From Tannerella sp. (GTDB lineage: Bacteria > Bacteroidota > Bacteroidia > Bacteroidales > Tannerellaceae): a stretch of 64,000 nt of DNA. How positions within the stretch are numbered: the stretch's first letter is position 1; the number at the start of each line of letters is the position of its first letter. The stretch spans positions 40,298 to 104,297 of the forward strand of contig JAITMM010000237.1 of the NCBI GenBank assembly GCA_031277335.1, given 5' to 3'. Below, piece by piece: positions 6,801-53,900 of this stretch. A model generated the notes under the pieces. It was not told where the DNA came from. It saw only the letters and a program-made list of their open reading frames with translations, and ran no database searches. A program made the position numbers and the translations under genes.

Positions 6801-9800
6801 GCTCCGGAGATAACGCGCTCGCTATTGTCGCGTATCCTTCAATGATTCGAGCAACTGTTTTCCAAAATACTTAAAACGCAACTGGAACGGGACAGGATGG
6901 AGGCTGACGAAGCTGCCAATCGCTTTACGCTTGAACTGATGGACAGGAAAGTGAAATTGGAGATTGATTTAAATGATCTTAAAGGCAAAGGCAGAGGGAT
7001 TATGTATCAGGCTAAGAAATCATTGGACAAGGCTTATGTGATGCTGGAAAAACTGCGCTCCGGAGAGTTGAAAAAGGAGAAAATAGCAAGAGCCAGCGGC
7101 AGGGCTAATCCGACGGATACGGCACGCCGCAAAGTGATGGTTACGGATATAATGAAAACCATTGAAGATTGAAGGACACTCGGTCGGGAAGATGGTACTA
7201 ACGGGATGATTGTCCTTGCTTTTGAAGGCGCCATAGAAGAACTGAACGATGTTATCAGCCGTCTCGAAGAAATAGCCCGGAATTATGAAAACGAAATAGA
7301 CCCGCAAGTGATGAACGAAATTGCGGGTATATTGAGGGATATGTATCAGTATGTCAATTACTACAAGGATTTAATCAGGGATATGAACGACTATATCGCT
7401 ACGACGGAATTTGACGATCCGGAAACAAAGCAGGATTTGGAAAATGTCAGGGACAATCTCCTCATTATGACAAACAGCGTCGAATCGAAATACAACAATA
7501 TGGGAAAGCCGCTTTTCAAGCAGTTTATCAAGCCTTATCTTGCAGAGATGGCGAGACAACAAAACATGAATGACGATAAGTTGGAGGCATACATGGAAAA
7601 GATATTGACAACCGCAGAACGGGACGAGAGTTTCTATGGCACGATGTGTACGGCAATGGCAAATTCCCGGAACGATATTCTGCGCATATTCGATTTGCCT
7701 GTCAAGCAGATGAAAGACAAGGCGCGGATGGAAATAGAAAATATCATGCACCGGCTGGCAAAAGCGCAGCAGGACTTGGAAGAAGCGGGAGAAAATACCG
7801 GTTTTCTTGCGGAACGGGACAAGAACGGTTTGCGTACAGGACGCCATATTCAAAGAGTTGATACCAAACGATATAATGATGATCTGACAAAATACGGGAC
7901 GTCTCTTATAAATGGAAAAAAGACTTATGAAGAACGGCAGGAACTTGAAAACGGGTGAATTGCGGAACATACAGACGAGAATGGAGAACCGCGTACCGAT
8001 TTATATGCAACCGAAGAATATAAAAGACTGAGTGCAGCGCAAAAGGCATATTACGACGCATGAGTGGAAGTGAAGGACAAGATGGATTCCTACCTGCCGG
8101 ACAGTCGCATTCTGAAAGGCTGGGATGATAAAAATAAGCGTATGCAAAAAGGCTTTTTACCTCAAAAGAGAAAGAGCAAATACGAACGGTTAAAAGGAAA
8201 TCCGCTTCGGAACATGAAGGAAAATATTCGGGAAGATTTCAGTTTTATGGAGGATGAGGATCAATACGGCGACGCCAGCGGAATAGAAGATTTTGCCGGA
8301 CAGGAATATCATTTGTTGCCCGTTTATTACAACAGCAGGCTTGGAAGGAACAAGGACGGTAAAGTTGTTCCGGAACTGATAGAGCAGAATTTGTCCGAAG
8401 ACTACACGACCATGCTGATGGAATATGCGAACATGGCTGTGATGTACAACAAGATGGGCATGATAAACAATCTGATGGAACTGGGCGGCAACCTTGTCAG
8501 GAATATCAGGGTAAATGTTCGGTGAGGAAACAGGAATATTTCGGAAAGACTTTCGGAACTGGGGCAGTCGGCTATCCGTAACCTAACCAAAAATGATGAT
8601 ACCAATATCAATAGGAAGTATCAGCATTTCCTACGGATGCAGGTTTACGGGAAAATGATAAAGCAGGAGACTATTGGTAAATTCAATCTGACCAAGAGCG
8701 GAGACTTGCTGATGAAATATACGGCTTTGAATACTTTTGCACTCAACTTCCTGGGTGGCAGCGCGAATATTCTCATGGGTCGCGTGCAGCAACGTATCGA
8801 AGGTTTTTCCGGCAAGTATTTTACAAACAAGAATCTATATAACGCTTCCTATCAGTACAAGAAGTTTCTGGCTGACTTTATGAAGGAGACAGCATCGCGT
8901 CGTCCCCATACGTTTGCCGGTTTATTGATGCGTAAGTTTGACGTAATGCAGAATTTTGGCGAACAGGCGCGCATGACGGAAATGAATAGGCGTGGTGCAT
9001 GGCGATTGCTGAACAGCCGCAATCTTTTCTTCCTGAATACGATGGGCGAACATTTTCTCTATACACGCACGTTTCTTGCATACGCGGATACCATCAAACT
9101 AACGCTGAACGGTAATCCAATCAAACTTGTAGATGCTTTCGAGATGAAAAAGATAAACGGTATTGAAGAACTGGCGATTAAGAAAGGGGTCAAGAATGAG
9201 GACGGGAGCGATTTCACGGACGCCAATATCAACGATATTTCCCGTACCGCCGCGGACATCAACCAGAAACTGAACGGTATCTATAACCGGGATGACGTGG
9301 CTGCCGCACAGTATTATGTGCTTGGACGCATGACGGCTATGTTTCGCAAGTGGATACCGACTGCGCTGCAACGTCGGTTTGGAAAGGAACATTACAATTA
9401 TATTACCAATGAAGTAGAAAAGGGATTTTACAACAGTTTCTTCAATGACTTTATCTGGCAGAGTATCAGGGATATGAAGAACGGACAGTTTAGACTTGCA
9501 TCTGCATGGAGCAGGTTGGACGACAATACGAAAGCAGGCGTCCGGGCGGCTCTTGCGGAGATGGGTATCTGGGCGTTTGCAGGGTTGTTAATGCCGGTTA
9601 TCTTTGGGGCTTTGGGATGGGATGACGATGATGACAATGATTCCTGAATAAGGAATTATGTTGTCTATCTGTCCACGCGACTGACCAACGAAATTGGCGT
9701 AATGATGCCACTGGGTTTTCTAAGGGGAGATTCGATGTATTCGGAATTGAAGAATATAAGACAGTCTGCCATGGCGCCAATCAGTTACATGGATAAATTA

Positions 9801-11489: not shown

Positions 11490-11686
11490 GCGGAAGGCTA
11501 AGGCAAAGGCGAAAGGTGAAAGGCGAAGTGTTTAGTGTTTAGAGTGTAGAGTTCAATTGAACTTGGCACATTAAACTTTAAACTTTGAACATCGAACCTT
11601 GAATTTTTAATTCGTAATTGTCAATTATTCTGTTGTTTCCAAAGTGTTAAGTTATTGATTTTGAACCCAATTAAAATATATTGAAA
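11490..11686 (+). repeat. Intergenic heptamer arrays
   Basis: AGGC-type, GTKTAGW, AACYTTG and AATTGTC-type units lead to an AT-rich stretch before the capsid ATG. The RRYTAAAC octamers seen in most gaps are absent here. There is no clear promoter. Confidence 0.65.
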
Positions 11687-14345
11687 ATGAGTTTAGGAAA
11701 ATTTCAAATGCGGGACGCAACGTCCTGAAAAGGTTTGACCACGTCGAACCACTTGAATGCTGTTTACAGGACAAGTCCACAGCAAGCAACACAGACTTAT
11801 ATCCGTCTGTTGGAACATAACTATGGCAGGAGTATGGAGAGTTTCCTGATGAGATTCCCCATCAAATACTTTGAAAACGATGAGGACATGGTGTGAAAAC
11901 TGATCGGCAGCGCCAGAAAAAACATACCTTTATATGAAGCGCGGGACTGCGACGGTAACGTTATTGGCGTAAACGATATGGCAGGAATAAACACGGAACC
12001 GTTCTATCTTGTATTTCAGGAAGATTACTTTGCGGACGGCAATTGGCTCGTAGGAGAATTGAATGAGGAATATCTGCTTATTGTTAAGGATGATCCAAAA
12101 ATTGAAGGTTCGCTTTACGTCTATCAGGTAGAATTGGCAGGCGGTAACGTTAGCGGTATGCCGGGTAGTGAATTGCAACCGGGCAAGAGATTCTCGGATG
12201 AATATTCGGCAGTCGAGAAAGATTTATCAAGAAAAGTTGGCGATAGAATGGAATGTCGCCTCGCAGCGTAATCTGCGATAAATAAACTGGGCAAAAACGG
12301 TGGAGTTCAAAAAGAGTTTTGATAATACCGTGCTAACTTGCCACTAACGATGGCAAGTAGTGTAGAGAGTAGAACATGAGGATAAGATAGTAAAAGATGA
12401 AAGGATATATCTATAAAATTACCAATAAGGTAAATGGAACGTCCTATATAGGACAAACAAGATATACAGTAGAATTTCGATGGAAACAGCATTGATTTAA
12501 AAAAGATGACAATACTAAATTCCATAATGCCATAAAATATTACGGCGTCGAGAATTTCACTGTGGAAACATTAGAAGAATGTAATGTTGATGATTTGGAC
12601 AGCAGAGAGATTTTCTATATTGCTAAATACAATACTTTTGAAAAAGGGTATAATTTAACAATAGGAGGAGGAGGAAAACGCAAGATAATTTCAGACAGTC
12701 AGTATGAAGAAATAGAAGGTTTGTATTTATCAGGTTTTACAACCTATAAAATCGCTGCTTTATTTAGAGTTGATAAGGCAACAATAACCAAGATATTAAA
12801 AGTCATGGGGGTTAAGATGCGCAGCGATAAAATACAAATGAATCATCAAGAATTTCTGGAACTGGTTAGTGATTATAAAAGTGGCTATTCATTAAGAGAA
12901 TTAGCCAAAAGATATGATTGCTCTGCACCCGGATTAAAAGAATACTTAAAAAGAAAAGGTGTTGATATTCAAGAAAAGTATTCAATTCTGGAAGATGAAG
13001 AATCTCAACAGGCTCTAATAAAAGATTATTTGGATAAAGATGTAATGACAAAAGACATTTTTGAAAAATATCATGTAAGTTGAGCAACATTCTATAAAAT
13101 TCTTTCATTGCATGGTATAAGTAAAAGTCATAGAAAACATTTTAAACTTACCGAAAAAGAATGTTTGGAAGCAATATCATTATTCAATTCAGGAATGATG
13201 ATACCCAATATAGCAAGAAGGTTTAAGGTTGATAAAACGACCATATATTCAATGTTTAAAAGATACCATGTTAACTATCTGACAGTATAATTGTTCCAAG
13301 AGTGTCCACTCCCTATTATTAAGTTAAGGGAGAAAATGTACTCCAAAACACTTCGTAAGAAGTTCGCAGGATAAAGAGCCTGCGATGAAAAGTTTAGATT
13401 CGATTTAGTGCACCTATCACTATGCGTAACGAATTTTCGCGCATTCGTCTGCAACACAAAGTTCCGGGCAGGATGCTGAATCGCAGAGTTGAATGCGGAA
13501 TCCCCTGTAAGGATCCGAAAACGAATCAGGTAAAAGTAGAGACGCTGTGGATGTATCACGTCGAATGGGTTTTTGAACAGCAATTTTCGCAGGACAAGAA
13601 CTATTGTTTGATGTATGCACGTTCCAATAGAAGTTCCAATGGGGAAGTGAGAAACTACGGTAAATCGGGTAATATCCTTTCTACCGGTAGCGGTATCCGC
13701 GAACAGATGTCGGTAGGTCATGTTACCTACTATAATCAGTTCAGTTTGAAGATGTTGGAGAACGCCTTGTTTGAATTGAGCACGGGAGTGCTGGGATATA
13801 ACATGCGTAATTTCGTTCTGGAAACGGGCGAACGCGGAGCTGCGAAGTTCAGCGAAGAAGCGCTGAAAACTACTTCCGGATGGCAGTCGAATATTTGGAT
13901 GGATGCTGAACGCCTGGGTATGGTAGGCAAGACAACTTCCGAACTGTCGAGCAACGCTTTAAAAGCGGGCTTCCAGTTTACGGAGTTTCTGTTTGCCAAT
14001 AACATTCGCGTTACCATTAAGGTGAATCCGTTCTATGATGATGTGGTGAGAAATAAACTCATCCATCCGGTCTTCGGAGGGCCTGCGGAATCTTACCGCT
14101 ACGATATTTACTATATCGGAAACACGGACGAACCGAACATTCAATTGTGCAAGATCAACGGTATGGAAGAGCAAAGAGGTTTCCAAGCCGGGCCATTTGG
14201 CAATCCGTTCACGGGCGAAGCGAACACGAATTTTGCTTCCTTTGACGAGGATGCGGCTGTAATCCATAAGATGGCTACGTTGGGTGCTATTGTGCTTGAC
14301 CCGCTGCGGACGATGAGCTTTATTCCTTCGGTGTTGGCGGCTTAG
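11687..14345 (+). CDS. crAss-like major capsid protein, split by a group I intron
   Basis: Exon 1 is 11687-12244 (186 codons) and exon 2 is 13398-14345 (315 codons plus TAG), joining to a 501-aa protein of the usual size for crAss-like capsid proteins (HK97 fold). The N-terminus (MSLGKFQMRDATSW) and the stretch MRNEFSRIR..HKVPGRML are hallmark sequences of this family. Exon 1 uses TGA for Trp. Splice sites were set from base pairing: GGCGAT at the end of exon 1 pairs with GTCGCC in the intron, including the expected U.G pair, and ATTC at the start of exon 2 pairs with GAAT. The joined frame reads KVGD-IRFSAPITMRNEF. A strong terminator follows the gene. Confidence 0.9.
12245..13397 (+). other. 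Group I self-splicing intron in the capsid gene
   Basis: This 1153-base insertion puts exon 2 in a different frame. Seen directly: P1 (GGCGAT/GTCGCC with U.G at the 5' splice site), P10 (GAAT with ATTC of exon 2), a terminal G, and a core segment AATACCGTGCTAACTTG that closely resembles the conserved core of the T4 td intron. Near the 3' end, TCGCAGG...CCTGCGA forms another hairpin. Established knowledge: group I introns splice with guanosine and often carry a homing endonuclease gene, as here. Confidence 0.85.
12397..13290 (+). CDS. GIY-YIG homing endonuclease in the capsid intron
   Basis: This 297-aa protein opens with GYIYKITN...SYIGQT, the GIY-YIG nuclease signature, followed by FRWKQH. 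KYYGVENFTVE and DLDSREIFYIAKYNT are the later motifs of the domain, including the catalytic Glu region. The remainder has four helix-turn-helix-like units (for example TYKIAALFRVDKATITKIL and MIPNIARRFKVDKTTIYSMF) that would recognise DNA. Two in-frame TGAs encode Trp, so the gene is adapted to this genetic code. It would cut intron-less capsid alleles to spread the intron. It ends in TAA 107 bases before the 3' splice site. Confidence 0.9.
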
Positions 14346-29449: not shown

Positions 29450-30328
29450 TTAGGTTGAGGATTTGAGATTTTTACTTATCCATTTTCCGAATAGAAAGAG
29501 GTATCTTCCTAAAATTAAAACAATTAAAGATATTTTTAGACAAAGTATTCCTTTCTCTTCCATTTCGCTTTTAAAACCGTCCATTCTCATATTTTTCAGA
29601 CTGCGCTCGCCGGACATAACCTCTCTGATGTGCATGGGATCGTCATACTTACTTTCGCCCCATCCAGGAGGGATCTCGTCTGGGGTCGTCCACATATCCT
29701 CTTCCTTAATCAACTCTCGTTGTGGCTTCAGTGTGTTCGGGGCGATTTTTTGTAGCATTTCAGCCTTATAATCATCTTTTGAAATAACGATTGATTTTTC
29801 TTCTTTGGGAAATGTATCCTTCGATAATTCATCCTTTATATCATTGATTTCCATAGAGGATTTATCTAATGGAGAATATCTCGATTTATAACGATTTAAA
29901 TCAGTAAGATTACTTATAGGCGGTTTCATTATAAAATAAAAACCTGTCAGAAACACCAGAGTTATTGATATGGCTATACCGATCAGTTTCAAGTTTTGTA
30001 TGAATTCCGATGCTATAACTTTTGAGGCGTCATTTTTGAAATTTTCTCTATTTTCTTCTCTGGTCGTGTTTCTAATATCTACGTTAATCGGTGATGAAGT
30101 ATTTACATTGGCATTTTGAGACGGGTTTGTAAATTGTTTCGGTATGGGTGGCGGCATTTCATCGAAAAATGATTTTAGACGTTCAATGTTTTCAGCCTTA
30201 TCCCAATCTTTCATACCTTGATGCCACACAAAGGAATCTCTTTTTAATGATAGTGATTTCAGTTCATCGTAAGTGTATGGCCCGGATTGTTCCCCGTTTA
30301 TGATAATATAAAAAACATTGTTTGTCAT
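29450..30328 (-). CDS. GYF_2-domain membrane protein sharing a motif with the giant RNAP protein
   Basis: This 292-aa protein is the only minus-strand gene. The start is taken at ATG 30328 (MTNNVFYIII), because a perfect promoter lies at 30350-30380 and the track's ATG at 30379 would fall inside it. Residues 3-55 are a GYF_2 domain (GEQSGPYTYDELKSL, then FVWHQGMKDWDKAE), a Bacteroidetes peptide-binding or adaptor module. Transmembrane helices lie near residues 114-133 and 262-281. Between them PPGWGESKYDDP...EVMSGERSL matches residues 75-100 of the giant ORF at 44990. Trp is coded only by TGG. An early, membrane-located role is possible. Confidence 0.8.
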   Translation of the reverse strand: MTNNVFYIIINGEQSGPYTYDELKSLSLKRDSFVWHQGMKDWDKAENIERLKSFFDEMPPPIPKQFTNPSQNANVNTSSPINVDIRNTTREENRENFKNDASKVIASEFIQNLKLIGIAISITLVFLTGFYFIMKPPISNLTDLNRYKSRYSPLDKSSMEINDIKDELSKDTFPKEEKSIVISKDDYKAEMLQKIAPNTLKPQRELIKEEDMWTTPDEIPPGWGESKYDDPMHIREVMSGERSLKNMRMDGFKSEMEEKGILCLKISLIVLILGRYLFLFGKWISKNLKSST

Positions 30329-30349: not shown

Positions 30350-30380
30350 CAAAGGTACTTGATTTTTTTCCCTTAACAAA
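30350..30380 (-). promoter_or_regulatory. Bacteroidetes-type promoter for the GYF gene
   Basis: On the minus strand TTTG and TACCTTTG are separated by exactly 19 bases, matching the primary sigma-factor consensus (TTTG-N19-TAnnTTTG). Transcription would start about 15 bases before ATG 30328. Confidence 0.8.
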
Positions 30381-30397: not shown

Positions 30398-30430
30398 AAG
30401 AAAAAAAAGAAGCGCTTCACAGCGCCCCCT
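30398..30430 (-). terminator. Minus-strand Rho-independent terminator
   Basis: GGGGCGCT-gtga-AGCGCTTC (two G.U pairs) is followed by eight Ts on the minus strand. It lies upstream of the GYF-gene promoter, so it ends the small transcript and not the GYF gene. Confidence 0.7.
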
Positions 30431-30516: not shown

Positions 30517-30547
30517 CAAAGGTAAACATTCTTTTCCTATTTACAAA
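30517..30547 (-). promoter_or_regulatory. Bacteroidetes-type promoter for the small RNA
   Basis: On the minus strand TTTG-N19-TACCTTTG is a perfect match in sequence and spacing. The start would be near 30510. Confidence 0.8.
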
Positions 30548-30789: not shown

Positions 30790-31458
30790 ATGAGCAAATT
30801 TGCAGAAATTGGATATTTAGTTTACGATAAACTTGGATTGGGTTCCGACGATGAAAGATTCACGATAGACCATATCCTGTATCTCTGTGGCGTATGGCGC
30901 GCCGCGCTAATCAAACAGTATTACAGGGATGCGAAACGTGAATTGTCGTCGTCGAACTATCAAACCATTTGCGTTAATCTGGCGTATAACGGGGACTGTC
31001 TTTCCGGTTCCGAAATGAAGTCGGTAGAGAAGATTCCGAATTTTATAGGCATCGGTACGGACAATATCAATATTGTGCCGATGGGCGACCGTTTCAATAA
31101 CAATCGCTGGACGATGGTTTCGGAAGACCGGTTTAACTTTGTGGGCGATAACAAGTGGTTGCGCAAGATTATCTATTTCACACGGGCTACAGACGGGAAA
31201 CTGTATGTCAAGTCAGCGTCTCCGGATTTCAAGTATCTGCAAAAGGTGAAGATAGAGGGTATCTTCGAGGATCCGGCGGAGGCTGCCAAACTTGCGTGCG
31301 ACAAGGACTGCAATCCGTGTGGCGACGTGATGGAACAGCATTTTCCATTGGAAGATATTCTGGTGCCGAATCTGATAGATATTGTTTACAGCAGGCTGGC
31401 TAACGATCTCTATCGTCCGGAAGATAAGAAGAATGATGCAGACAGTCTTAGTTTGTAG
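30790..31458 (+). CDS. Conserved head-tail connector/ring protein
   Basis: This 222-aa protein has no TGA. The N-terminal block FTIDHILYLCGVWRAALIKQYYRD followed by SNYQTICVNL is a strongly conserved signature of a structural protein in crAss-like and related Bacteroidetes phages. The C-terminus includes a short Cys cluster (CDKDCNPCGDV). It opens the tail-assembly group with the IHF-like, connector and tube genes and lies downstream of the dyad promoter. A neck-ring role is inferred from gene order. The exact subunit identity is not resolved here. Confidence 0.7.
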   Translation: MSKFAEIGYLVYDKLGLGSDDERFTIDHILYLCGVWRAALIKQYYRDAKRELSSSNYQTICVNLAYNGDCLSGSEMKSVEKIPNFIGIGTDNINIVPMGDRFNNNRWTMVSEDRFNFVGDNKWLRKIIYFTRATDGKLYVKSASPDFKYLQKVKIEGIFEDPAEAAKLACDKDCNPCGDVMEQHFPLEDILVPNLIDIVYSRLANDLYRPEDKKNDADSLSL

Positions 31459-31569: not shown

Positions 31570-32232
31570 ATGCCTTTAAATCATACAATGACAAGGATGT
31601 CGAGAGCGGGTTGGACAGAAATTCCCAGAGGTAGCCGTGGCAAGAGGTCTGATTGACCCGAATGTTACGGGTTGCACCGGTTTAAGTGGAATCTAAAATT
31701 CAGATGGCATATCTCTCCACAATTGCTGCCAAAGGTGATCAATGATGTATTCAAGCATATGGCGGAACATTTGTGGGAACGTGGCACGCTGACGCTTCCC
31801 GGTAATTTCGGACGGTTGTACATTCAGGGATTTAAAAAGCAACCGCTAATGACGAAGGACAGAAAGATGATATATGAACAGTATGTAGATTGGGGTTCGT
31901 CGCTGAAAATGTGGCAAACGGATGAGGAAGCGAGACAGGAAGGTTTACTGGTACGGTATAATCCGGGTATTACCTATAAGATTGGATTCAATCTTAGGAC
32001 GGATAGAAGTAACAGAACGCTTGTACCGAACCTTTCGTTTTTTAAGTTTCACAGTCAGACTTCTCTTCGCAAACTGGGTGCAGAGATTATACGTGCTGGA
32101 GAACCTCCGCCTATAGAAAGGAGTTCCATGTTCCGGAACAAGCGGGGTAGCGTTTTGGCTCCGCGTAATTATAAGGAAGTGAAAGAGATGGATAAAAGGA
32201 GAAATAATCCGTGGGCGGATTTTGTGTATTAG
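31570..32232 (+). CDS. IHF-like subunit of crAss-like phages
   Basis: This 220-aa protein starts at ATG 31570 and includes TGA 31654 (Trp), so the ORF-track start at 31672 is too late. Residues ~45-110 follow the HU/IHF pattern: a helical part (LLPKVINDVFKHMAEHLWERG), LPGNFGRLYIQGF, and basic arms. The C-terminus is basic and disordered (RRNNPWADF). IHF-like subunits placed beside connector genes are a hallmark of crAss-like phages, where they may bend DNA at the portal or be structural. DNA binding is likely but not shown. Confidence 0.78.
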
Positions 32233-32335
32233 TGTTTAGAGTGTAGAGTTTAGAGTTTAATTGATAATTGACAATTGACAATTGACAATGAAACTTGGAA
32301 CAACTAAACGATTTAACAACTAAACGACTAAACAA
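32233..32335 (+). repeat. Intergenic heptamer/octamer arrays
   Basis: GTTTAGA/GTGTAGA, ATTGATA, three ATTGACA units and RRYTAAAC octamers form one of the cleanest series in the window. Confidence 0.85.
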
Positions 32336-32346
32336 ATATTTAAGTT

Positions 32347-32388
32347 ATGAAAAAGTTTTTGATAAATAAGAAAGTATTGTATGAATAA
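32347..32388 (+). CDS. Possible 13-codon leader peptide
   Basis: MKKFLINKKVLYE ends in TAA overlapping the ATG of the next gene (ATGAATAAG). The ATG sits where other genes begin after the arrays. It may couple translation or be chance. Confidence 0.25.
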   Translation: MKKFLINKKVLYE

Positions 32389-33091
32389 GGGGAATGTGTC
32401 AATAACAGTTATTCTTGACCGCCTGTTGCGTAACAGCGTCATGGAGGGTATATCGCTGGAAACGGTGATTGATTATACGATTGATTTTATCGGTATCTCC
32501 GGCGTACCGCAGAACTTTGAGCAGAAACTGTTCAAGGGTGTTATCAATGAGTTTCGCTGCGAATTGCCGTGTGATTATGTCGATATTATACAGGTGTTGT
32601 TCCGGAACCGTCATTCAAGACGTTTTATTCCGGCACGGTATGCTACGGATACGTTTCATCAACATTACAATTGTGCCGACGTGCATCCTTCGCATGACTT
32701 TACCTATACGGTGAACAGGGATTACCTCTTTGCCAATATCGAGCATGGAGAGTTGGAGATGTCCTATCTGGCTGTGCCGGTGGATGATGACGGTTTCCCG
32801 CTTATCTCTGCGGACAATGATTTTCTCATGGCTTTAGAATGGTATATCAAATATACGCATTTTACGAAACTGTGGGAGGAAGGTAAGTTGGAGGACAAGC
32901 GTCTGGAAAATGCAAAACAGGAATATGCGTGGGCTATTGCGCGGTACAGTTCGCATGTGAAAGTACCAGATATGGGGCAGACGGAATCCATATTGAATAT
33001 GTTCCGTACCATGGTGGGGACGCAAAACGAGTTTCGGAAGAGGTTTCGGGATACGGGAGTTAAGGAGATTTTTAGACGGCACCCGTCTTAA
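32381..33091 (+). CDS. Tail stabilisation/connector protein
   Basis: This 236-aa protein has no TGA. LLRNSVMEGISLETVIDYTIDFIGI followed by LPCDYVDIIQV is a conserved opening of a crAss-like structural protein. STDTFH-type residues (ATDTFHQHY) and a helical C-terminus with WAIARYSSH follow. It lies between the IHF-like gene and the large tube/muzzle gene, as in other crAss-like phages, where this position is assigned to a tail stabilisation or neck-ring protein. The role is inferred from gene order. Confidence 0.7.
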   Translation: MNKGNVSITVILDRLLRNSVMEGISLETVIDYTIDFIGISGVPQNFEQKLFKGVINEFRCELPCDYVDIIQVLFRNRHSRRFIPARYATDTFHQHYNCADVHPSHDFTYTVNRDYLFANIEHGELEMSYLAVPVDDDGFPLISADNDFLMALEWYIKYTHFTKLWEEGKLEDKRLENAKQEYAWAIARYSSHVKVPDMGQTESILNMFRTMVGTQNEFRKRFRDTGVKEIFRRHPS

Positions 33092-33195
33092 TCAATTACG
33101 AATTACGAATTTTCAATTACGAATTAGGCGAAGAACAAGGCTAAGGCTAAGGCAAAAAGGAACTTTGAACTTTGAACAAATAAACAGTTAAACAA
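33092..33195 (+). repeat. Intergenic arrays
   Basis: AATTACG units (four), AGGC units, AACTTTG and RRYTAAAC units are present. Confidence 0.75.
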
Positions 33196-33202
33196 TAATT
33201 AG

Positions 33203-36200
33203 ATGAGAAAACAAGCAGCGTTTAATAATATTAATGGAATGAATCAGGATGTAAGTATCTCGAAGTTCAATCCCAAAATGATTTACGAAGGAATGAATAT
33301 TCGTATCAATTCTTCGGAGGATGGTACTTTGTTTTCCATTACGAATGAGAAGGGTAACAAAAAGTGTATTATCTGGAATTTTGACCGTACACAGACTGTT
33401 GAACTGAATTATGTGGTCGGGCATTGCGTGCTGAATGACTGGCTGGTTATTTTTGATACGACCTTTCAAAGTTCTCCTAATTCTCCTCAAGGGGGAACCG
33501 GAGACGAGCCACGGGTGGATCGGATTTTGAGGTTGGAAGGGATTAATGACTATGAGTTTACGGCTTATGTATTATATGAAAGTGACGGTTCCGATACGGG
33601 ACTTAATTTTCGGGCTTCGGAACTGATAGAGTGTTTTGGATTGTATGAATCTGATGACAATCAGAAAGTGTATTTCTGCGACCGGAATAATCCAATCCGT
33701 TTCATCAATATTATGAAAGATGTTACGGAAGTAGATAGTAACGGACAGTTGGTTTATGATTCAGACCGCGTGCGTAACAACTTGAATTTTTGTCCGGTTT
33801 TGAAGTTGGAAGAGACGTATGACATTCAAAAACGCAATTATGGCGGTACGTTTCATTCCGGCGTTATCCAATATGCTTTCAGTTATTGGAATCTGAACGG
33901 GCAGGAAACGCACATTCACTATGTTACGCCACTTTATTATATTTCTTTTGAGGATAGAGCCGGCAGTCCGGAACAGACTTGCAGCAACAGTTTCCGTATC
34001 GAGATAGACCATCTTGATTCCAATTTTGATTACTTGCGCATTTACTGTATCCACCGGACTACGGAAGACGCGATGCCCAATGCCCGTATTGTGAGCGATA
34101 TATATTTGCGGGATGAGGATGACAATCCCTTGACTTTTGCCGATATTATTGATGACGGGATAATTGGACGGACATTTGATTCCAATCTGTTGCCTGTATT
34201 GGGTGGAGACGAGATATTCGCGGAGACGATGGCGACAAAAGAGGGTGTTTTGTTTGCGGGAAATATTCGCATGTTTAATGAAAATTTGGAAGCGGTCAAG
34301 GATATTATCCGCAATAATGATCCGGATAATCCTGTATTCAGAGTTGAAATTATCCGGAGCGGAGAAGAGAAGGACGCTCAAGGAAATAATCTTTTTGAAG
34401 ACGTGGAAATCTTCAATGAAGATATCAAGAATCCCCAGAATGATTATTACATGTATTATCCCTATACGTTAAACAAACCCAGCGATACCGTAAAGCATTG
34501 AAAATTCAAGGAGACGTACCGGCTTGGATTGCAATTTCAGCACGAAAACGGATTATGAAGTTCATCCGTATTTTTATCGGATATTGTTATTGACAAGCCC
34601 ATGAGTGTATGGGGGAAAAATGATTCCGTTACCGGACGTCTGATCGGTTCCATTATCCGTTACAACCGTATAAAAGTGGAATTGACACAGACTTTATTAA
34701 ATGCCATACCTGCATTTTATAAAAAGGTCAGGCTGGTTTATGTTAAAATGACACCTGACATGCGGACTGTCATCACACAAGGTATATTGATGAATACCCT
34801 TTACAGAAACGGCGCCCGTGAATCCAATTCTCCCTTTGCAGTTCCTGACTGATATATCAGACCGAACAGAGAATTGTGCATCAATTACGCATACAATACA
34901 AGCAATATTGGTGATATTTTAGATCCGTCAGTCGAACCGGCATTGCCAATCATATCAACTTCTGCCCTGTTAAACATGATGTACAGTAAATGGCTTGGAA
35001 CCACGAACATTTTCAGTCAAAATTTATATCCATTGCCATCGTTGCATGGAATGCCGACTGCCCTGCGTGATAGCATGGGATATCCTCTTCTGTATATGTC
35101 CAATTCCGAAACATGACAGTCCAAAATGTTTACCTGACCTTCCATGCCTGCTATTGATATTAAGACAAGGTTAAGAAACAGCACGGAAATATCGAAATTT
35201 TTCCAGTACACGGGTAGTGCAGATACAAGTAACGACATCATATATTACAATAATTCCTATTATACAAACGATTATTTGAGACATGATCCCTGGTATAGCA
35301 ATTTCAATATCCGTTACAGTTCTCTCGAATACGAAACGTATCGTGGCGGATTCAATGCAACCGGCGGTATTGAATATCATAATGAACACAGTTTGGAAAA
35401 AGATACGGATTGAGTGATAGACAAGGGTATTATTAACATGTTCAGTCCCGAAATCATGTATGATCCGAACTTTGCCAATATAGATTTGTCAAATACCGGC
35501 TTGCGATTCAGAATGGCCGCCATGATAACTCACCAGTCCTGAAATCAAAAAGCAAATGTAAACGGGTCGCCCGGTCTTGAATCTTTTCTTTCCTGACTGA
35601 TTATGCGCAGAAATGAACCCTATAAATCATTTAATTACAGTTACAATCAATCTTCGATGCCGCTCGCGGACTATTTTCCCAAAAGAATATACCGTATATT
35701 TACAGATGGAACCGATATAATCGAGCGATCCGAAGAGGCAACATACAGCGCCTTATGACATGCTCAAAATTCATATACCGTTAATACAAATCTCGATCCG
35801 AGCGTTCCCGGCGCCGTTTGCAATTCGCAGGATACTTCATTATGATATTCGTCTGCATTTGCCATGACTTTATATCGAAAGGAATCTGTCATTGATTGGG
35901 GAAATAACCGGATAACCGCGGAAAACATATCGCCGGAAATATCCATTTATACTCCCAAATATATGGGATTGACGGATGACAAATATATTGTCTATAAAGG
36001 TTCGGATATTCACAAGAGACCATTCAATTATGGACGGGAAGTTTTCGAGATTATTTCTACCATGTCCGATAATGGAACACATGGGGAAGGCGATAATCCC
36101 GTAATGGTTTATCCCGTGAAATACAGAACCAACAACCATTTGGTTATGGAACTGAAATATATGGCGCGTCCCAAGGATAAACTTGTCCGGGATCATGTCA

Positions 36201-42747: not shown

Positions 42748-42800
42748 AGACGAAGACAAAGGCAAGAGGCAAAGGCGAAAGGCTTAGGCGTAGAGATTGG
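42748..42800 (+). repeat. AGGCAAA-type array
   Basis: GGCAAGAGGCAAAGGCGAAAGGC units fill the short gap between the two cargo-type genes. Confidence 0.7.
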
Positions 42801-42832
42801 AGTTTAGAATTTGGTTTTTAAAGAATTATTGT

Positions 42833-44971
42833 ATGGCAAATACTTTTTCGCCCTATCAGAGGGCATCATTAGCACAGTTTACACCCATATCGGCACAGCA
42901 GATGTGGGCGCCCATTACTTTTGCGATAGAGCAGGAACAGAAGGGCATGGATATGCTTTCGACTTTGGATGGAGATTTGAACAGGGCAGCTATCATGGCA
43001 GTAGGCGATCCGGATGGTGAACGCATTATCAATCAGTACCGGGAGAAATTGAAAAGCGCCGGACAGAACCTGTATGTAAACGGGGTAACGCCGCGTACCA
43101 TGCAGGATGTACGTTCCCTGCAAAACATGTTCTCACAGGCTGTAACGCCTCTTATGGTTGGTTTTGCCAACAGGGATGCGTATTACAAACGGGAACTGGC
43201 AAAAGCCGATGCGGATCCGACTTTCCGTTTCAATCATCCCAAGATGTCCCTAACGGAATGGGCTACTTCCGATGTTGCCAATATGCCTGTCCAGGGCGCA
43301 AGCGCGGCTATGGTTCAGGCACAGGTTGCCAATGCTTTGGCTCCATTTGCCAAGAAGACTTTCTTTGATGGAGAAACCTTGAAAAATTTGAAGGGATTTC
43401 TTCCTGTCAGGATTGGAGATCAAGATGTCGATACTTATCTTTCTTATATTGAACGGAAGGGTTACGATCCGGATTCGCCGGAAGGACAGATACTCTTCAA
43501 TGCTGCAAAAGCTAACGTCTATGAGATGTTGAAGATAACGCAGAATGGCGCACGCAATCCTATCTTCACGGATACGGACATGTTTGCCTTTGATTCGGCT
43601 GCCAATCTTGCTAAAACGGCAATGACGGGTGAGACGCAGATGAATACGATAAAGAATCCGGAGTTTGAAATGGCATATCAGGATTATAAGGATAAGAGAG
43701 ATTTCGATCAGGCTATGGCGTTGGCACAGATGAGGATTGATGCTGCTGGAAAAGGTACTGGAACAGGCGGAAGCAAGGGAGAAGGCAAAGGCAAAGATGG
43801 AGAAGTAACCGGTTATAATCCGGCAAATCTATCCAGATCTTATAATGAACCCGCTTCGACTACTGCCATCAGGAATGAAGAAAAAATAGCGGAAGCCAAC
43901 GACGTGATATCGAGAGGCAAAACTCTTGACAATACTGTTTACAGTAAAATGAAAAATGGTCTTGAAAGTCGTATAAATTTGGTAGCCCAATATACATATG
44001 AAGACAGGAATAAGGATGGGATACCGGAAACGGGATTCAATCCTGAAAATAAGAAGAAACTGATAAGTCGTGTCAAGGACATTGTGGGAAATATGGAAAG
44101 CGGAAAATATGTTTCGATAGATGACATGATAGAGGATTATGATAGAAGTGAAGCTCCCTACGAAGGTTGAGATTCCAAAGCATGAAATATAAAAACATAT
44201 CTTTCAGATGTATGGGACGCATGAAATGGCAGTATTAACGAGTATTTAAAGAATGGCGAATACGGCGATTTATCCAAACTCACGTCGGAGGAACGGTTGG
44301 AGATTGTTAATGGCGTCAGTCAGGAGGGGATGGATTATAAAACAGTAAAATTCAATCATTCTTCCGTACAGGAAGCGTTAAAACAATATGTTGTCAATGA
44401 TACTTCAAATCCCTTCTTTATGGTAGAAAAAGGAAAAAAGGTTAATGCAAAAGATAAATTGAAGGAACTGTATAGGATAAACAATAAAGATGTCAAGCCG
44501 ACTGACGATGAAACAATATTAATCAAGGACGCATTAAAACATCTTACTCCCGCAGATATAAGTTTACAGACGTATAATACTATTGCCGGAAAACCTGTTA
44601 TCGAGATAACTACGGCTGTCGGTACATTTTATCGCAAGGCTCCGAACGAAATCCAGAACGCGCTTACTTTCTTTACGGAAGTCAATAAACAGATAAACGC
44701 TCTTAGAAAAGGGAAAAAGAAAATGCAAGTCGTAACATATAAAGACGGGGAAGGAAATACTTGAGAATATAATGTTGGAAAGAAAGATGGGAAATATTAT
44801 GTTGAATCGGTTATTTCATCCGGAAAGACTAATGAAGCAGGCAAACCGGAATGAATCAAAACGGGAGTATTCGATATGACCGAAATAGAAAACTGAACAA
44901 ATGACGGTATGGATCATGTCCTGACAGAACTGTTGAAAACGGATACCAAATTAATAGACCAATACGGATAA
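42833..44971 (+). CDS. Second virion cargo-type protein
   Basis: This 712-aa protein starts at ATG 42833 (MANTFSPYQRASLAQF). The track's upstream ATG (42797) lies in array-derived sequence. Four to seven TGAs in the last 270 codons are read as Trp. The sequence is largely alpha-helical, with MQDVRSLQNMFSQAV and a glycine/lysine linker (GKGTGTGGSKGEGKGKDGE) near residue 320 encoded by AGGC-type repeats. It lies 18 bases before the giant RNAP gene. The same MAN.. start and position suggest an internal virion protein acting with it. No enzyme motif is recognised. Confidence 0.65.
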
Positions 44972-44989: not shown

Positions 44990-47900
44990 ATGGCAAATAC
45001 ATCAATTTCAGAGTTATACAGAGGAATCAATAATATAAAGGCGGGACGTCCCGAAGACGCTCTTCCCGAAACCGAAGATATGAAAATAAGCGCTCCGAGC
45101 GATGAAGAATTTCTTCAATCCGTCCGGTCATTTGTCGCTCCCATGTCATACGTACCGCAAAGCGCTTTTCATACATGGGAAGATACCGTAAGAATCGCAG
45201 AGGAATATCCTGTCGGATGGGGTCAAAGCAAATACGATAATCCCTTATACCTTGATGAAGTTATCGAAGGTCAGCGCAGTCTGGAAGACTTGAGGGCGCA
45301 GGAACAGGGCGCTGCCATGGGTGGATGGGCGAGCCTTTGGAATACTGTGTTGAAGGCAGGTACTACAGTTGCTGAACTTTTTCCTCTTGCCGAAGGAGCC
45401 ATAAGGGCGCCTCTTGGCGCTGCGGGTATAGGTACGGAAAAATCGGGATGGGAAGGCGCCTGGGAAGGATTTATGAATACCTGAACGGGAGATTTACTGG
45501 GACAGCTTGAAGGGTGAGCCAGAGCAGACAACTATCGCACGGACGAATCGCGAAGGGCGACGGCTATTGGCAAGTGATATACCAATTTGGACAGCGATTT
45601 TTGGCAGCAGGATGTTATGGAAAATCTGGGATTTGCCGGAGGTATGATCTTGCAGGGATATTTAACCGGCGGTCTCGGTACTTTATTGAAAGGAACATCC
45701 CTGTATGGAAAATTACCGGCTGCGCTTAAACTCTTTGGCGCTACCGACGATGCGATGAAGGCTTTCAAAGCATCAAACGAAGCGAGCAAAGCCTTTAAAC
45801 TTGCCAAGGCGCTCAAGGCTGACGGATTAGCCGATGATGCTATCGGTAATGTATTGAGTGGAAAAGTGAATTTGAAAGGGACAAGTTGGTTTTCAAAATT
45901 GGCTCCCGAACTTCAAGCGGAAGCCAACATGCTTAAAAATTCACAACGTTTGCAAATGTTCGCAAGGATGGCGCCCGGCGTTGTTACGGAGTCGTCTCTC
46001 GAAGCACAGGATTATAAGGATAATGCACTCAAAACTTTCGAGGAGGATTTGTATTCAATGGAGAATACTGTTGATTACATGGAAAGGGCCATGATGGAAA
46101 TGGGTTATGACGGTTCTACCGAAATAAAACCCGGAAGTCCCGAATATCAGGCTCTGGAACGGAGAGTGGGCGAACTGCGACAGGAAGATTATGCGCGGAT
46201 GAAAAGTGAAATCAACAAAAGTTCGTTTTTACAATTCGGTCTTAACGTGGCTTTGCTTGCCGCTACGGATGGTTTCTCGTGGGGACGGCTGTTCAATAAA
46301 AACAAAACGTCCGGCGTGGGAGCATCCATGAGGAGATGGTTCAAGGGCAGTCTGGAAGACGGCATGAAAGTGAAAAGTCTGTTGGGCGAAAAGGCGATAG
46401 ACCTGGCAAAGGGAGTTGTGGCGGAAGGCGGACAGGAAATGGCGCAAAGCGGACTGGCAAAATTTGCCGAAATGTCTTCGGAACGGGGATACGATAAACA
46501 ACTGTACCGGGATTTGGGATTGGATAATGATCCGGCAAACTTGCGGAATAAACAGGTATTTGAGGATTTTGCCATGAACCCGAATAATGTGAAAAAGACT
46601 GCCAACATTTTTGGAATGCTTGGCGAATCGCTTTTGGATACGATAGGAGACCCAAACAGTTGGATGGAATTTACAATCGGCGGTTTGACGGGCGGCATAT
46701 TTCCGTTCTTTTCCATCAAAAGCGACGTCAATCAGAGAGGTATCGCGAAAAAAATTGCGAATGATTTTAATACAAGATGAAACACTCCGGAAGCGAAAGC
46801 CAAATTCAGATATATCAATAATAGTTTGTATCTGGATGATTTGCAAAAGATAGAGATTGACAAGGATAAGCCTTCGGATACGGTATTGTTCTCGGCGGAT
46901 GCGCTTTCGTTTGTCAATGAAGTCAATCTTGTTCATTCGATGGGCAGGACGGAAGAATATATCAATACATTCAAGGATGCTGCGAAGGAATGGCAAAAGA
47001 CACTGTCGAGCGGAGACAGGGATGCCATCAGGACAGCCGCCGACGACGTTAGAAAGGCTACGATGAATAACAGCGGCAAAAGCATGTATGAAAACATGAC
47101 GGACGAGGAAGCGCTTGTCTCCGTTATCAAAAACAATGAGGACAATATAAAGGCTGTCAATAAACTGAATGAGATAAAACGGAATATGGAAACGCTTGTT
47201 CCCTTGGACATGTCCCGACGGGGCATGGAGGAATTGGAGGCTTTGTATTTTACAGCGGATCATCTGGGAGAAAAGGCGGACGCCATTTTGGGTAACATGA
47301 TTGAATCCATGAAGGGATATGCCGCGAAGGAAGACGCGCAGAAATTCAAGATCGGAAAGGACGAGATGACAATGCAGGAGATTCTTACAGCAATGCAGGA
47401 AAAGAAACTCAATGAGAGGGATATTGTGAAGGCTATTTTTACCAATGTTAAAGACCTTGAACAGGTTAATGCGTGAACTATGGCGCTGGGATATGGTAAT
47501 AATAAGATGTGAAAAACGGCGTCGGAATTTGAATCGTTTGTAAACGGTTCGTTGAATAATAATCCTGCGGCTACGAGCGTTGACAAGATAAGATTTAAGG
47601 AAGATTTGATTAATCTTGCAAAAATGGCGATTATCCAAGATAAGATGCAGAAGCAGATTGAAGAATATCTGAAAACTCCGACCAAATTGAAAGAGAATGT
47701 TGACAATACTGCCAGGAATATGGCAGACGATGCGAAGGAAGGCGCTAAAAAAGTCAGAAATGAACAGGTTGAAAAAGTTAAGAAGGAAATGGAGAATATC
47801 CATACGGTAGATGATTTGATTACCGAAATGGATCGCAGACCAGAGTTTAAAAGGGATGTGTTGAATAACAAGGATGATTTGCAGGATGTTCCATTGATTT

Positions 47901-50900
47901 ATGAATATGATAAACTTTTAGCCAAGAGCGACGTTCTAATGGATGATGTTAAAAATGATATTCATGCTGTTTTCGGAGACGAGGCAAGCGACGCCGTTTT
48001 GAAAACGGTTAAGGGTATTGTTGATCGGAAGTTAAGGGCTTTTAACAGTCTGGATGAAGCCAACCGTAATCTCCGTTTTACCAAAAGCGATTTTCTGCAA
48101 GTCGGATTTCAGGATGAAAATGCAGAAAAGTTGCTGAACATTTTAAGTAAAAAATGGAATGACACAAATAAATACTCGAAATTCAAAAAGAGACCGGCAG
48201 AAAACAACAATGTTTCTTCTCCGGTACAGAAAGCGGAAATAGATACGGAGAATATACCGCAATCCGTTATTGATGCGGCGAAGAATATGCCCAGGGGAGA
48301 CGTGGACGATTTAGTAACTGACAATGAAAATACAACGTATGAAGCGCCGGAATATCTGAAATCCGAAAACGACGATTCCAACAATGAAGTTATCGGGATG
48401 AGCAAATCCAAAATGGAATTAATTGTCAGAAATATCCAGCAAATAGGAAGAGGAAATGATTCAAGTCCCGGTATCTGAAATAGTGGTATTAATGAAATAC
48501 CCTATCTATACGATACGCGCAAAAAAAATAGACCACCTATGCAGGAAGACAATGGCATCAAGGCTGCTCGTGATTTTTTACAATCACAGGGCGCTTATGA
48601 TTATATGAATCATGGAAATATCCAAAGAGATGACAAGGTGTATTTAATGGTTTCACAGGAATACTGGGATGCTATTGTCAATAATCCGCGCAATGATGCT
48701 TTGCAACGGAAAGATGCTGTTAAATGGATCAATGAAAACAAACCGTTACTGTTGGTTGTCAAAGATAAGCGAAATAAAAACAGAATGCAGATTGTCGGTG
48801 TTTATAGAAGCGATTTGGATAATCGTTTGGCTGATGCCGGTCAGGAACGGTTACATGATCGGGCTTTGGAAGACGCCGGTATTCCGAAAAACGCAACTGT
48901 TGTTGGAACCGGCGCAATGGATACCGGCTCTCAAAACAATTTTGTTTACCGGAAATCGTATTTGAAAGTTGAATCTCTTGCACAGAATTATGATTCTACG
49001 CCTATCGATTATGGCGATGAAAAGAATCTAAAATCCGCCCTGTCGGATGAAGATATAAAGAATGCGAAATTGGGCGTTGATATTGGTAAATCATCTCCTT
49101 TGCAGACGAATGACGGGATTTCCGTACCAAGGGTTGATAACGTCAATACGGGTTTTACCTATTTCCTGATACCGGATAGGGACGGAAACAAAAGCGATGG
49201 AAGAATCTATACACGTGTGCCTTTGAAATACAAGGACTTGAAAGATACGGATTATAAGAACAGGGGAAAAAAATTATTTGACAAACTGCATTACATTTTA
49301 GAAGAGGCGCTGAAACTTCCAGGTAACGAAAGAGGAAAATTCGACTTGTTCTATCTGGATTTGAGTTCGATTTTATTTGTCGGAGAAAAGCCGAAGATTG
49401 GACTGCATTTGCGTCAGGATGGCATTCAGATAACAAAGGACGGTAAAATTGTAAAAGTATCTGAAAACAAGGATGAAATATTGGATGCCTTGGCTGATTT
49501 GGGCGTTCGCGTCAATGTCTTTGCCAAAGATGTGAATACGAGATGGCATCTTGACAAGAGAGAAAATTATAACGATGTAATCATTGACGCTGATGTGCTG
49601 ACTACGAACATGAACAGTACGAGAAAACAGGGTCGGTTTTTCTTCATGTATGAACGCGGCGTTTTCAATTCTACCGAACCGGAAGCAAAGGAAAGCGAAG
49701 AATCTGTTGCAACGGCTCCGGAAACAAAGTCCGTATTGGGTACGTCCGTACATGTGGATGCTACTTTTGAAACGCCGGAATCGGTTAAGGAATTGCAGGC
49801 GGATGATCAGTCGCTGGTTGTTAAGGCAGAAGCGTTAGGCGAAAGGCAGGAGGCGAAGACGGGATATGTGGAATATGTTGATTATCTGAACGATGGAGAT
49901 TATGTCGTAGTAGGTAATGCAAATACTATTGAGGATAATGGTTTAGTTGAAGGTTTATTGGAAGATAAATTAAATGAGGGGAAATTTACTTTCGCCATCA
50001 TAAAAAACAGAAAAACCGGAAAATATGGTCTGGTTCCTACCGAACTTGGTAAGAAGCAGATACAGCACAACGCTGATTATGCAACAGGTACGAATGTTCA
50101 GCGATTTGAAAATTACCGGGAAGAAGGCGTTAATGTCATTGATATGGGAGAGATTCAATTTGACGCTGTACTTGGACGTTATAAAGTATTAACAAAGCCC
50201 AGAATACATATTGGTAATTATAACAGGATTCTGGAAGAAATGAATCGAACCAACGACAATAAGAATGTTCAATTTGTTGCCGATACTTTTGCCGACAGTA
50301 AATCGGTCAGTGTAGTTTCTATTAATCCTGCTGAAATTATTGATGATACGGGTAAGGCTATTGATTTAAGAGATACAAGAGAACTAACAAAATGACTTTT
50401 GCTAAAATATAAAGGTAAAGAAGTTGAAATAAATGACGATGAACAGATAATATCGTTTACAAGAACAGGTCTTGAATCAAGTACTAAAAAGCGTGGTATC
50501 GTACAAAGACAAGTTTATGCGGATCTTGAAAATGTAATTAAGAATGGTATTTATGTCGGTTACGAAAAAGGCGATGAGAAACATCCATTAATTGATAGAC
50601 AAAATATTTATTATTCTGCAATAAAGATAAGTGATAAGTTATTTGGAGTTAGATTTAAAATAGATATTCCTAAAGGTGTAGAAAAAGGAAATTATAAAGA
50701 TCATATTATTGTTGAAATAGAAATAGAAAAATCGCCGCTCCTGTACATAGGGCCTCGACAAAGCGATGTATCCTATCAGCAAAACAGCGATTTAACTATT
50801 ACCGTGCCTGAAATAAAACAGGCATTTGCCGGCAAAGGTACGACAAATATACCGGAAAACAAAACAAGTCAGGAGAATAATGTTCAGGAACCTTCTCAAC

Positions 50901-53900
50901 GTGTTCGTCGTTTTAATGCAGATACAAGTAAGGTGAAGAAGGGAAGATGAACGGGTAATGGTGAAATGGTTGGTGATAATGATGGTAGTCCATTATTGCT
51001 TCGGGAATATAACAGATTGTACAGTCGTAAAATTGCCGAATTGGAAAGACTTGGAAAAGTAATTGTACATGAGGAAGAAAGATGGTCAGACCTGGCGCAG
51101 CTGTTATCGGAAGAAGGCAAGAATCCCGATGACTTTGGCGCTTATACCGTACTGGATGAAAATACGGGTGTGGTGCATGTCTTTGTTAATCCGAAACGCA
51201 AAACTACTTTCAGCAAGGAACATGAGTTTATACACGTGCTTACGGCACAGGCTTTGGAAAATCCGAAAACAAAAGATGACTGGGAGTTGCATGATAAAAT
51301 GCAGGAACTCTATGACGAGTTTGTCAGCGATTATCAGGCTGACAGTCGTTTTGATCAATACCGTATTAGCAATTTGAAGGAGTTTGTGGCATATGCCCTG
51401 ACGAATCGGGAGTTTCAGATGCTTTTGGAGCAGAGGGAATCGGTTCAAGGTTCGGGAGTTCAAAATTCAAGGTTGAGAGAAGAGAAGGAATTGGAGAAGG
51501 CTAATGAGCGTTGGAATCGGGAATTGGATGATTTTAAGAATAAGATACACAATAATATATTACATTTGGGAAAACCACTTTCCATTTTAAAAGCATCCGG
51601 CGTAAATGCAAGAGAATTAACCATATCACCCACTGTTTTAAATCGTAAAATGAGACAACACAATCTTGTTACAGATGATTTGAAAAATCTTGCGGAAGCC
51701 ATCCAGAATCCCATGTTTGTTTATGAACATGGAACTGTTCATCCAAATATTGTAGTTATCACCAATATTAATGTAAAGGATAAAAAATTATCTATTGCCA
51801 TAAAATTAGACAATCAAGGAAATGTTGTTGAAATAAGTAATATATCAAGTGTACATGGTAAAGATGCTGTTACTGAATTAGAAAGATTAAGTACAGGAGC
51901 TTTTAGTGGAATAGGATTTACACCAAAATGAATATCCAATAAACAAAATGTTTTGAATTGGTTAGGTATCGCCCACCTAAATGTAGGCAGTCATACCGCC
52001 AATTCAAAACATATTTCGCTGGCAAAGGTAATACAAAATTTTGAAAATCCAAAACTTCCGGTTGAAAAAACCCCGGAAGTAAAAAGTGAATCCTTGTTTA
52101 GACGGATAATGAATGCCATCAGGAAGTTTTTGGGATTGACTTCCAAATTACCAGAAACAATGCTTGATGATGTTGTATCGGCTGTTGAACGATATGTGGA
52201 AAACAAGGACTACGAAATCGAACGTTTTCACAGGGAAGAAATGCTACGCCGAAAAACGAAACAGGCATGGGAAAACATCAGACAGATTACACGGACTGTA
52301 AAAGGCGGCGTTACCGGATTGAACACGTTGAAAACGAATCTTGGCAATTTGTTGGAGATTGTCAATGATGGCAACCGTATTCAGTTGCTGGATGAGAAAA
52401 AGACATTGTCTCTGTTGAAACAGGTATTGAATGACGCTGACTATAACAGTGTTGAAAAATTATGGAACGATTTTGACAAAACGATTCCGGACAGTTTTCA
52501 GGCGTGGGCTATTCACCGGCTTGGAAAGGCAAAGGATATTGTAAGGAAATTAAGAACTGTAAGCGAGCATTTGAATAATACTGAAACGCTTGGCATGGTT
52601 TCGGAATTTCTGGCTGACAAGTCGAAGATTGAATATACGGACGCAGAGATGCAGGCTTGGAACCGGTGGAATAAACTGGCTGCTTCACACAATCTTTTGG
52701 AAGGAAACAAGCCTTTCTTCAAGATTGGTATCATTGGAGTATTCAAGACCCGCAAACAGGCATTGAGTATAGCAAAGGAGTATCGTTCGATATATCCCGA
52801 TATTTCAGTACATTACAACAATTTTAACAATTCATGGGTTGTAAATGTCAATGATAATCAGATTAATGCTATACGCGATAAGATAAACAGTTACAGATTG
52901 CTTGACGGAGAAGAAGTGCAGGAAAATGAAACCGTATTGAAAAACAATGATGAGATTGTAAAGCATGAAAGAGTTTTGAAGAATGTTAATACCCTGTTTC
53001 CCAACCCTGTTGACGTTAATGATATTACAGACGAGATTATCCGTTTATGGGATGAAAGCGTGTTTTCTCTGGAAGAAGCAGAACCCGACAGGGACAGAAA
53101 AAAAATAATCATCGAACATGGCGTGAATGAGATAAAAAATATCATCGGTTCATTGTTTGAAGACATGGCAGAAGAGCATCCTCAACATGCTTATTCCATT
53201 GACAAGATATTGGACAATCTGGAGGACTTTCTGTATCTTGCCATGCCGGGAATCAGTAAAATGGAAGGTCTGACCATTAAGCAGGATGTTTTTGCCGTCA
53301 GGGACAATATGACCGAAACGCTGAAAGACCTTGAAGATGGCATGGAAGAAACGGATAAGGATGGTTGGATGATTAACAATGACGAAGTTACGCTGGAAGA
53401 CAGCATGACTGAAAAAACAATGCGACTGTTACGGAATATGCGCATGATGGATAGCCGGACAACAGTCATGGGTACTCCTGCCCGTATTCCGATGGATATT
53501 GTTAAAAACGGTTTGATAGATGTTATCTGTAACAAGGCTACAAGCAGCGAAGACTTTATGGACGCTCTGGAAAGTGGCGTTAAAAAATATCCGTTCATCG
53601 GGCAATTGATAAAAAACATCCAAGCCGAACCGGAATACCAGACTTCCCTTTACAAGACATTCCGAAGGGATTATGTTGAATTGCAGGCTGTTATTTATCA
53701 AAACGGCAAAACGACGATGAAAAATCTTTCCAGACGCTATGATGCGGAAGATAAACTGGAAGAGATTCAAAAGACGCTTGAATCCGGTATTAATTTACGG
53801 GAAGACATGCGGCTATTCAGAAATACTGTTCCGGTAAGTGAAAGCGGAAAGAATGATGTGCAGGACGCTGATCAATATGCCAATCTTCCCCGCTACGATG

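Follow-up and report, generated by a model that had tools for sequence, protein, structure and literature searches.

A diverged second copy of the leading segment of a polymerase cargo protein within a predicted membrane protein of a crass-like phage

A membrane protein gene beside the late operon

The window, by which we mean the whole 64,000-nucleotide stretch analysed here, makes up the right-hand 64 kb of a contig of 104,297 bases from a bacterial assembly and carries the late genes of a crass-like phage. Assignment to Crassvirales comes from Pfam matches to crassviral ring proteins 1 and 2, the auxiliary capsid protein and cargo protein 1 (C1), from a PHROGs match to a virion structural protein at the muzzle position, and from the MCP. 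The gene order of ring 2, ring 1, muzzle, C1, C2 and a giant gene is that of crAss001 gp40 to gp47. All of the following lie on the plus strand: tail ring protein 2 (30790-31458; Pfam CrAss_Ring_2, E=4e-42), ring protein 1 (32381-33091; CrAss_Ring_1, E=2e-52), an intein-interrupted orthologue of cargo protein C1 (38038-42747; crAss_CARG1), an orthologue of cargo protein C2 (gp46) recognised by its position and synteny with crAss001 (42797-44971), and, just downstream of the latter, a giant virion polyprotein gene (44990-64000) of at least 6337 codons that is open to the contig end. In these late genes TGA stands for Trp, and the tRNA with anticodon TCA found upstream (L004:6804-6877) is probably the UGA suppressor.

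Adjoining the ring protein 2 gene and close to that of ring protein 1, a gene for a predicted membrane protein runs antisense to the late operon (29450-30328, minus strand). It probably starts at the ATG at 30328 and would then encode 292 aa; the ORF is open from a TTG at 30379, and residues are numbered here on that 309-aa ORF. Residues 24-68 (30176-30310, minus strand) match the GYF_2 domain (Pfam PF14237, E=3e-14), and the score of 52.9 bits against a gathering cut-off of 25.8 places the protein in this family. Two membrane helices are predicted from hydropathy, the first at residues 130-152 (29924-29992, minus strand; hydropathy up to 2.3) and the second at residues 278-298 (29486-29548, minus strand). 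Between them lies a loop of about 125 residues, which contains the block that is the subject of this report (residues 178-265; 29585-29848, minus strand). GYF_2 domains are usually cytoplasmic. The charges flanking the predicted helices are weak, so that the predicted topology follows from hydropathy and the placement of the GYF_2 domain, and a structure model of the protein (mean pLDDT 56) is uninformative on this point. The GYF_2 domain is also what the phage protein has in common with bacterial GYF_2 membrane proteins (PF14237; GltJ-like). GYF_2 domains are frequent in Bacteroidales genomes, with matches in 64 of 149 relatives, and the bacterial matches to the phage protein cover the GYF domain, with none spanning the block.

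The signals upstream of this gene are of the host type. Two perfect matches to the Bacteroidetes promoter consensus TTTG-N19-TACCTTTG lie upstream on the strand of the GYF gene: P1 at 30350-30380, about 20 nt before the ATG, and P2 at 30517-30547. Strict matches number 6 on the contig where 0.7 are expected, and among local shuffles none had two promoters and 0.1% had one. A SieA-like exclusion protein would be a membrane protein made early or from the prophage, without the late-gene machinery; what the sequence offers here is two predicted membrane helices and two host-type promoters. Most of its late neighbours need TGA recoding and the GYF gene does not: its five Trp codons are all TGG with no TGA, a count that is not significant taken alone. 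The layout is that of a moron that the host would be able to read with neither phage polymerase nor suppressor tRNA. The first-pass annotation had described the gene in much the same terms, as a minus-strand gene with host promoters and two membrane helices, and this description stands with the helices and promoters as predictions. A search for anti-phage defence gave no PADLOC model match to the GYF protein at E<=0.1. A terminator-like hairpin at 30407-30430 (minus strand) falls between P2 and P1, where 1 was found against 0.9 expected by chance; P2, about 110 nt and then this hairpin, all upstream of P1 (30400-30547, minus strand), could form a leader or small RNA. Other strict host-type promoter matches occur within the giant gene, at 50863 and 52053 (minus strand, antisense) and at 63154 (plus strand).

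At the other end of the contig, the leftmost 7.6 kb is bacterial DNA. The host/phage junction (contig 7692-7760) holds a 50-base 3' fragment of tRNA-Arg(TCT) that is 100% identical to the gene in related genomes, and phage-type early genes come next, among them one for a DUF2201 protein that matches hundreds of phage records. Host DNA together with a partial tRNA-Arg gene at the phage flank suggests integration. The junction looks like an attachment site, and the phage is likely to be a lysogen whose right junction would lie outside the contig. A search for an integrase of the PF00589 type found none on the contig, whose sequence stops before the right end of the phage. Among epsilon crass-like phages, incomplete prophages are already on record (PMC11054128). 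One candidate for the right attachment site, C266, was rejected because host-like genes lie on both sides of it, although its tRNA-Arg(TCT) is intact and shares 88% identity with the fragment.

Homology between the block and the giant protein

The GYF protein contains the peptide GWGESKYDDPMHIREVMSGERSLKNMR, encoded on the minus strand at 29585-29665, and the giant protein contains GWGQSKYDNPLYLDEVIEGQRSLEDLR, encoded on the plus strand at 45215-45295 and corresponding to residues 76-102 of the ORF that starts at 44990. Both peptides are exactly where the first-pass annotation had placed a shared motif of 27 residues. They agree at 15 of 27 residues and at 54 of 81 bases. Homology extends over about 90 residues, from INNIK (giant residue 13) and INDIK (GYF residue 178) to the end of the 27-mer, so that giant residues 13-102 (45026-45295, plus strand) align with GYF residues 178-265 with a single 2-residue gap and an identity of about 37%. 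Aligned locally with the complete giant protein of 6336 residues, the GYF protein gave a Smith-Waterman score of 148. When the GYF protein was shuffled 2000 times and aligned to the whole giant in the same way, the mean score was 53 and the best was 83, which rules out chance similarity. The portion upstream of the 27-mer scored 51 when aligned alone, a value reached by 2 of the 2000 shuffles, and alignment of the flanking sequence found no similarity between the two proteins downstream of the 27-mer. The earlier remark that the proteins otherwise look unrelated is thus correct outside the block of about 90 residues and needs amending within it. In an independent whole-genome search the two loci were each other's match, second-best in the genome, with E of about 1e-11, and a self-search of the contig, which served as a positive control, recovered the GYF copy at E 2e-13. 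By these alignments the GYF block and the N-terminal segment of the giant protein are homologous. The block resembles only the giant protein of its own phage, and none of the gp47 proteins of other crassviruses with which it was compared gave a match.

Base composition gives an indication of where the block came from. Its GC3 is 0.47 against 0.29 in the remainder of the GYF gene (p=0.005), and the giant gene, at 0.39-0.48, is close to the value of the block. Such a patch is what a transplanted segment in the GYF gene would look like, and the simplest history would be one of copying from the giant gene of the phage's own lineage into an AT-rich GYF membrane-protein gene. This raises the question of whether the fusion does anything. 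A fragment of a related giant gene may have been fused into the membrane protein gene by chance recombination and have no function yet, and the deviating base composition, the derivation of the block from its own lineage only and the failure to find orthologues all agree with such an accident. We consider it unlikely. With an identity of only about 37% between the copies in this block, either the fusion or its donor must be old, and yet the reading frame is intact. The part of the block that is best conserved is the motif, with its 15 of 27 identities including positions conserved throughout the family, and the gene that houses it has two consensus promoters. The divergence between the copies could have accumulated in the lineage of the giant protein.

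The cargo signature and its distribution

The 27-mer of the giant protein turns out to be the beginning of a longer N-terminal signature (45215-45394, plus strand) that is common to other crassviruses and consists of GxGxSx[YF]D, a variable stretch of 15-20 residues, L..R[AG]xxQ and then a hydrophobic AGTT segment. The same N-terminal pattern is found in crAss001 gp47, cr111, cr128, cr108 and phi14:2 g067. An HMM built from eight seed sequences and used in a six-frame search of virus records gave one strong match per record in several further crass-like records, at the start of a long ORF; the signature occurs once per phage (examples are L032:29047, L132, L146, L156 and L188:5998). Cellulophaga phage phi17:2 (L187) has a weaker match in its giant structural protein. 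The giant protein here has GxGxSx[YF]D followed by R[AG]xxQ near its N-terminus and is encoded directly downstream of C1 and C2, as expected of the gp47 type. Given this shared pattern and the HMM matches, the motif in the giant protein is, on sequence grounds, the N-terminal signature of a gp47-type, virion-packaged, RNAP-associated cargo. In crAss001, gp47 was identified as virion cargo by mass spectrometry (PMC10172136), and phi14:2 g067 is annotated in its record as a virion protein by the same technique. The literature that was searched contained no prior description of this N-terminal motif or of its conservation across crassviruses.

The resemblance to crAss001 gp47 and phi14:2 g067 takes in both the signature and the place in the cargo operon (ring 1, muzzle, C1, C2, gp47). 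In phi14:2 the gp47 type and the RNAP are separate genes, g067 and g066, whereas here they share one frame of at least 6337 codons. The domains recognised in it are the gp47-type N-terminus, MuF_C and two LPD3, and a DFDID motif at 56843 (giant residue 3952) is of the DxDxD type reported as catalytic in crassviral RNAP (PMC7886860). The N-terminus and the DFDID motif bear out the earlier identification of this ORF as a fused RNAP cargo. The ORF also has a HELGH metallopeptidase-like site and tandem 60-bp repeats (62513-62938) that code for 20-residue repeats (LGNLQRIGGNAYFRNSQVTD). A further idea is a transcription switch: in lysogens, or late during infection, the membrane protein would sequester the phage's own RNAP polyprotein at the membrane, because it presents a rival N-terminal segment to the polyprotein's assembly partner. 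The same homology would serve this idea, as would host-type promoters running antisense to the late operon. Nevertheless, the N-terminus of the gp47 type lies far from the DFDID motif and its role in transcription is unsupported, which makes such a switch very improbable.

Within the overlap the GYF copy retains every position conserved in the family (G, S, Y, D and R), and it ends at the R of RAxxQ. The R[AG]xxQ element is the most conserved part of the signature, and its first residue is the last of the 27-mer; in the giant protein it reads RAQEQ (45293-45307), and the remainder is absent from the copy. The signature HMM accordingly scores 7 bits (E=12) on the GYF protein and matches its first half only, so that the protein does not carry the full signature. 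Truncation bears on the suggestion of the first-pass annotation that the motif may be a shared docking, packaging or membrane-delivery signal. If the block were a packaging or ejection signal, the GYF protein would itself be loaded into the virion and delivered to the membrane of the next host. In the phages examined the segment does lie close to the start of a cargo protein that is packaged, and a membrane helix is predicted in C1 of crAss001, which is ejected too (PMC10172136). Against this, the signature was found once per phage and not in the other cargo proteins, C1 and C2, where a tag for cargo in general would be expected. The copy is also internal, between two predicted membrane helices, and truncated, and its gene has host promoters and stands outside the late operon. 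Because the copy lacks RAxxQ, the packaging part of the suggestion becomes the less likely one, and we regard it as improbable. Docking or competition at the membrane is still the best class of explanation.

Searches for a second copy elsewhere came back empty. Second copies were seen in neither the tblastn search with crAss001 gp47 (50 places in 50 records) nor that with cr111 gp47 (9 places in 9 records), nor when 16 crass-like records, of which several are partial, were searched against themselves; run on the present contig, this self-search does recover the GYF copy. Distant relatives keep the motif in their gp47 orthologue, and the membrane-protein copy was not seen in them. The notion of a general crAss-phage signal that the cargo shares with a membrane protein is therefore not borne out in the crass-like records examined, several of which are partial. 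A degenerate DNA pattern for GWG[EQ]SKYD had no matches in IMG/VR and 9 in GTDB. Eight of these nine could be read in register, and each meets a stop inside the motif or shortly after it; the ninth (L197) is too near the end of its locus for such a reading, and all nine look like chance. These scans rule out a motif that is widespread in unrelated proteins, the outcome that would have counted against a specific link between the two genes. Searches with the giant N-terminus, the GYF protein, ring 1, the MCP and the block found no near relatives or orthologues of the chimeric gene and no second copy in other crassvirus or bacterial genomes; the best MCP identity to any phage found was 57%. The chimeric GYF protein is known from one case, and because no orthologue was found, selection on it cannot be shown.

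A possible membrane decoy

The homology is certain, and what follows on function is our best guess. We tentatively propose, with a probability of roughly 0.4, that the GYF protein may be a decoy, anchored in the membrane, that imitates the protein which the phage itself ejects and, like P22 SieA, excludes superinfecting relatives. The minus-strand gene would be a phage moron for an inner-membrane protein expressed by the host, with the order of cytoplasmic GYF_2 domain, membrane helix, loop of about 125 residues and membrane helix. This loop, which is most likely periplasmic, would have received a copy of the ~90 N-terminal residues of the RNAP cargo that the phage itself ejects. During ejection of cargo from a related virion, the loop would compete with the incoming giant N-terminus for the normal partner of the latter, putatively an ejected channel protein such as C1 or C2 or a host membrane protein. 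Since the copy stops just before RAxxQ, it would hold the partner without letting delivery go on, and the entry of relatives would be blocked. Superinfection exclusion would thus work by self-mimicry, with a truncated copy displayed by the prophage jamming delivery of the polymerase and genome of relatives, a scheme we put forward as tentatively as the decoy itself. The direction of copying, the membrane topology, expression before late infection or in the lysogen, and decoy action are all things that we infer.

Several lines of evidence lead us to favour the decoy. The block is homologous to the conserved signature of an ejected cargo, and its match is to the phage's own giant protein only. 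The GC3 patch, the two host promoters, the lack of TGA, the flanking helices and the tRNA-Arg junction point in the same direction. In addition, two inner-membrane proteins that engage ejected proteins provide precedents. P22 SieA is a phage-encoded inner-membrane protein thought to block entry by acting on the ejected conduit proteins of relatives (PMC10883804), which is the role proposed here, and SNIPE is an inner-membrane protein that acts at the injection site and blocks entry through contact with ejected tape measure proteins (PMC13190303). SieA has no described copy of an ejected protein, whereas the GYF protein has one, together with a putative exclusion role. SNIPE has a DUF4041 domain and a GIY-YIG nuclease on the cytoplasmic side, and the GYF protein has no Pfam match to either. 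We know of no copy of a virion protein within SieA or SNIPE. The HK97 gp15 moron, cited in two papers (PMC10883804, PMC13190303), codes for a phage membrane protein that prevents injection of the genome and has a link to the tape measure protein. It belongs to a siphovirus system, and its likeness to the GYF protein is one of description. For the self-mimicry step itself, no precedent was found. Neither a GYF domain nor a virion-derived block is known to us in gp15.

The opposite role, a shared docking element that aids infection, would have both proteins bind the same partner through the block, the membrane protein serving as the adaptor by which an ejected polymerase is received or held in place, or by which late complexes are anchored to the membrane. 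Retention of the family-conserved G, S, Y, D and R is what would be expected if binding were retained, and host-type promoters permit early expression. However, a protein made after infection comes too late to aid the entry of its own polymerase and could do so only for later virions. No such membrane protein was seen in the other crassviruses examined that have this cargo signature, and the most conserved part, RAxxQ, is missing from the copy. We therefore judge a helper of this kind to be unlikely and, within the earlier idea of docking at the membrane, an antagonist to be more likely than a helper.

On sequence comparison, then, a second, diverged copy of the first ~90 residues of the polymerase protein is housed in a separate, predicted membrane protein with host-type promoters, and this speaks to how crassviruses deliver a megadalton polymerase cargo through the tail and both membranes. 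That a membrane protein bears the leading segment of the cargo suggests that contact with the membrane machinery is made by the N-terminal ~100 residues, and the loop offers a simple reagent for probing this contact. If the decoy reading is true, exclusion would have been made specific to the phage's own kind through the copying of part of the virion.

Other genes of this phage have features of their own. An ORF at contig 32095-36129, likely the terminase by its position, contains an intein with a LAGLIDADG domain, and the MCP gene (11681-14345) is apparently split by a GIY-YIG endonuclease-like ORF (12397-13290) that is likely part of an intron. Among the early genes, two adjacent ones on the minus strand (L003:13039-13906) encode retropepsin-like aspartyl proteases with a DTGA motif.
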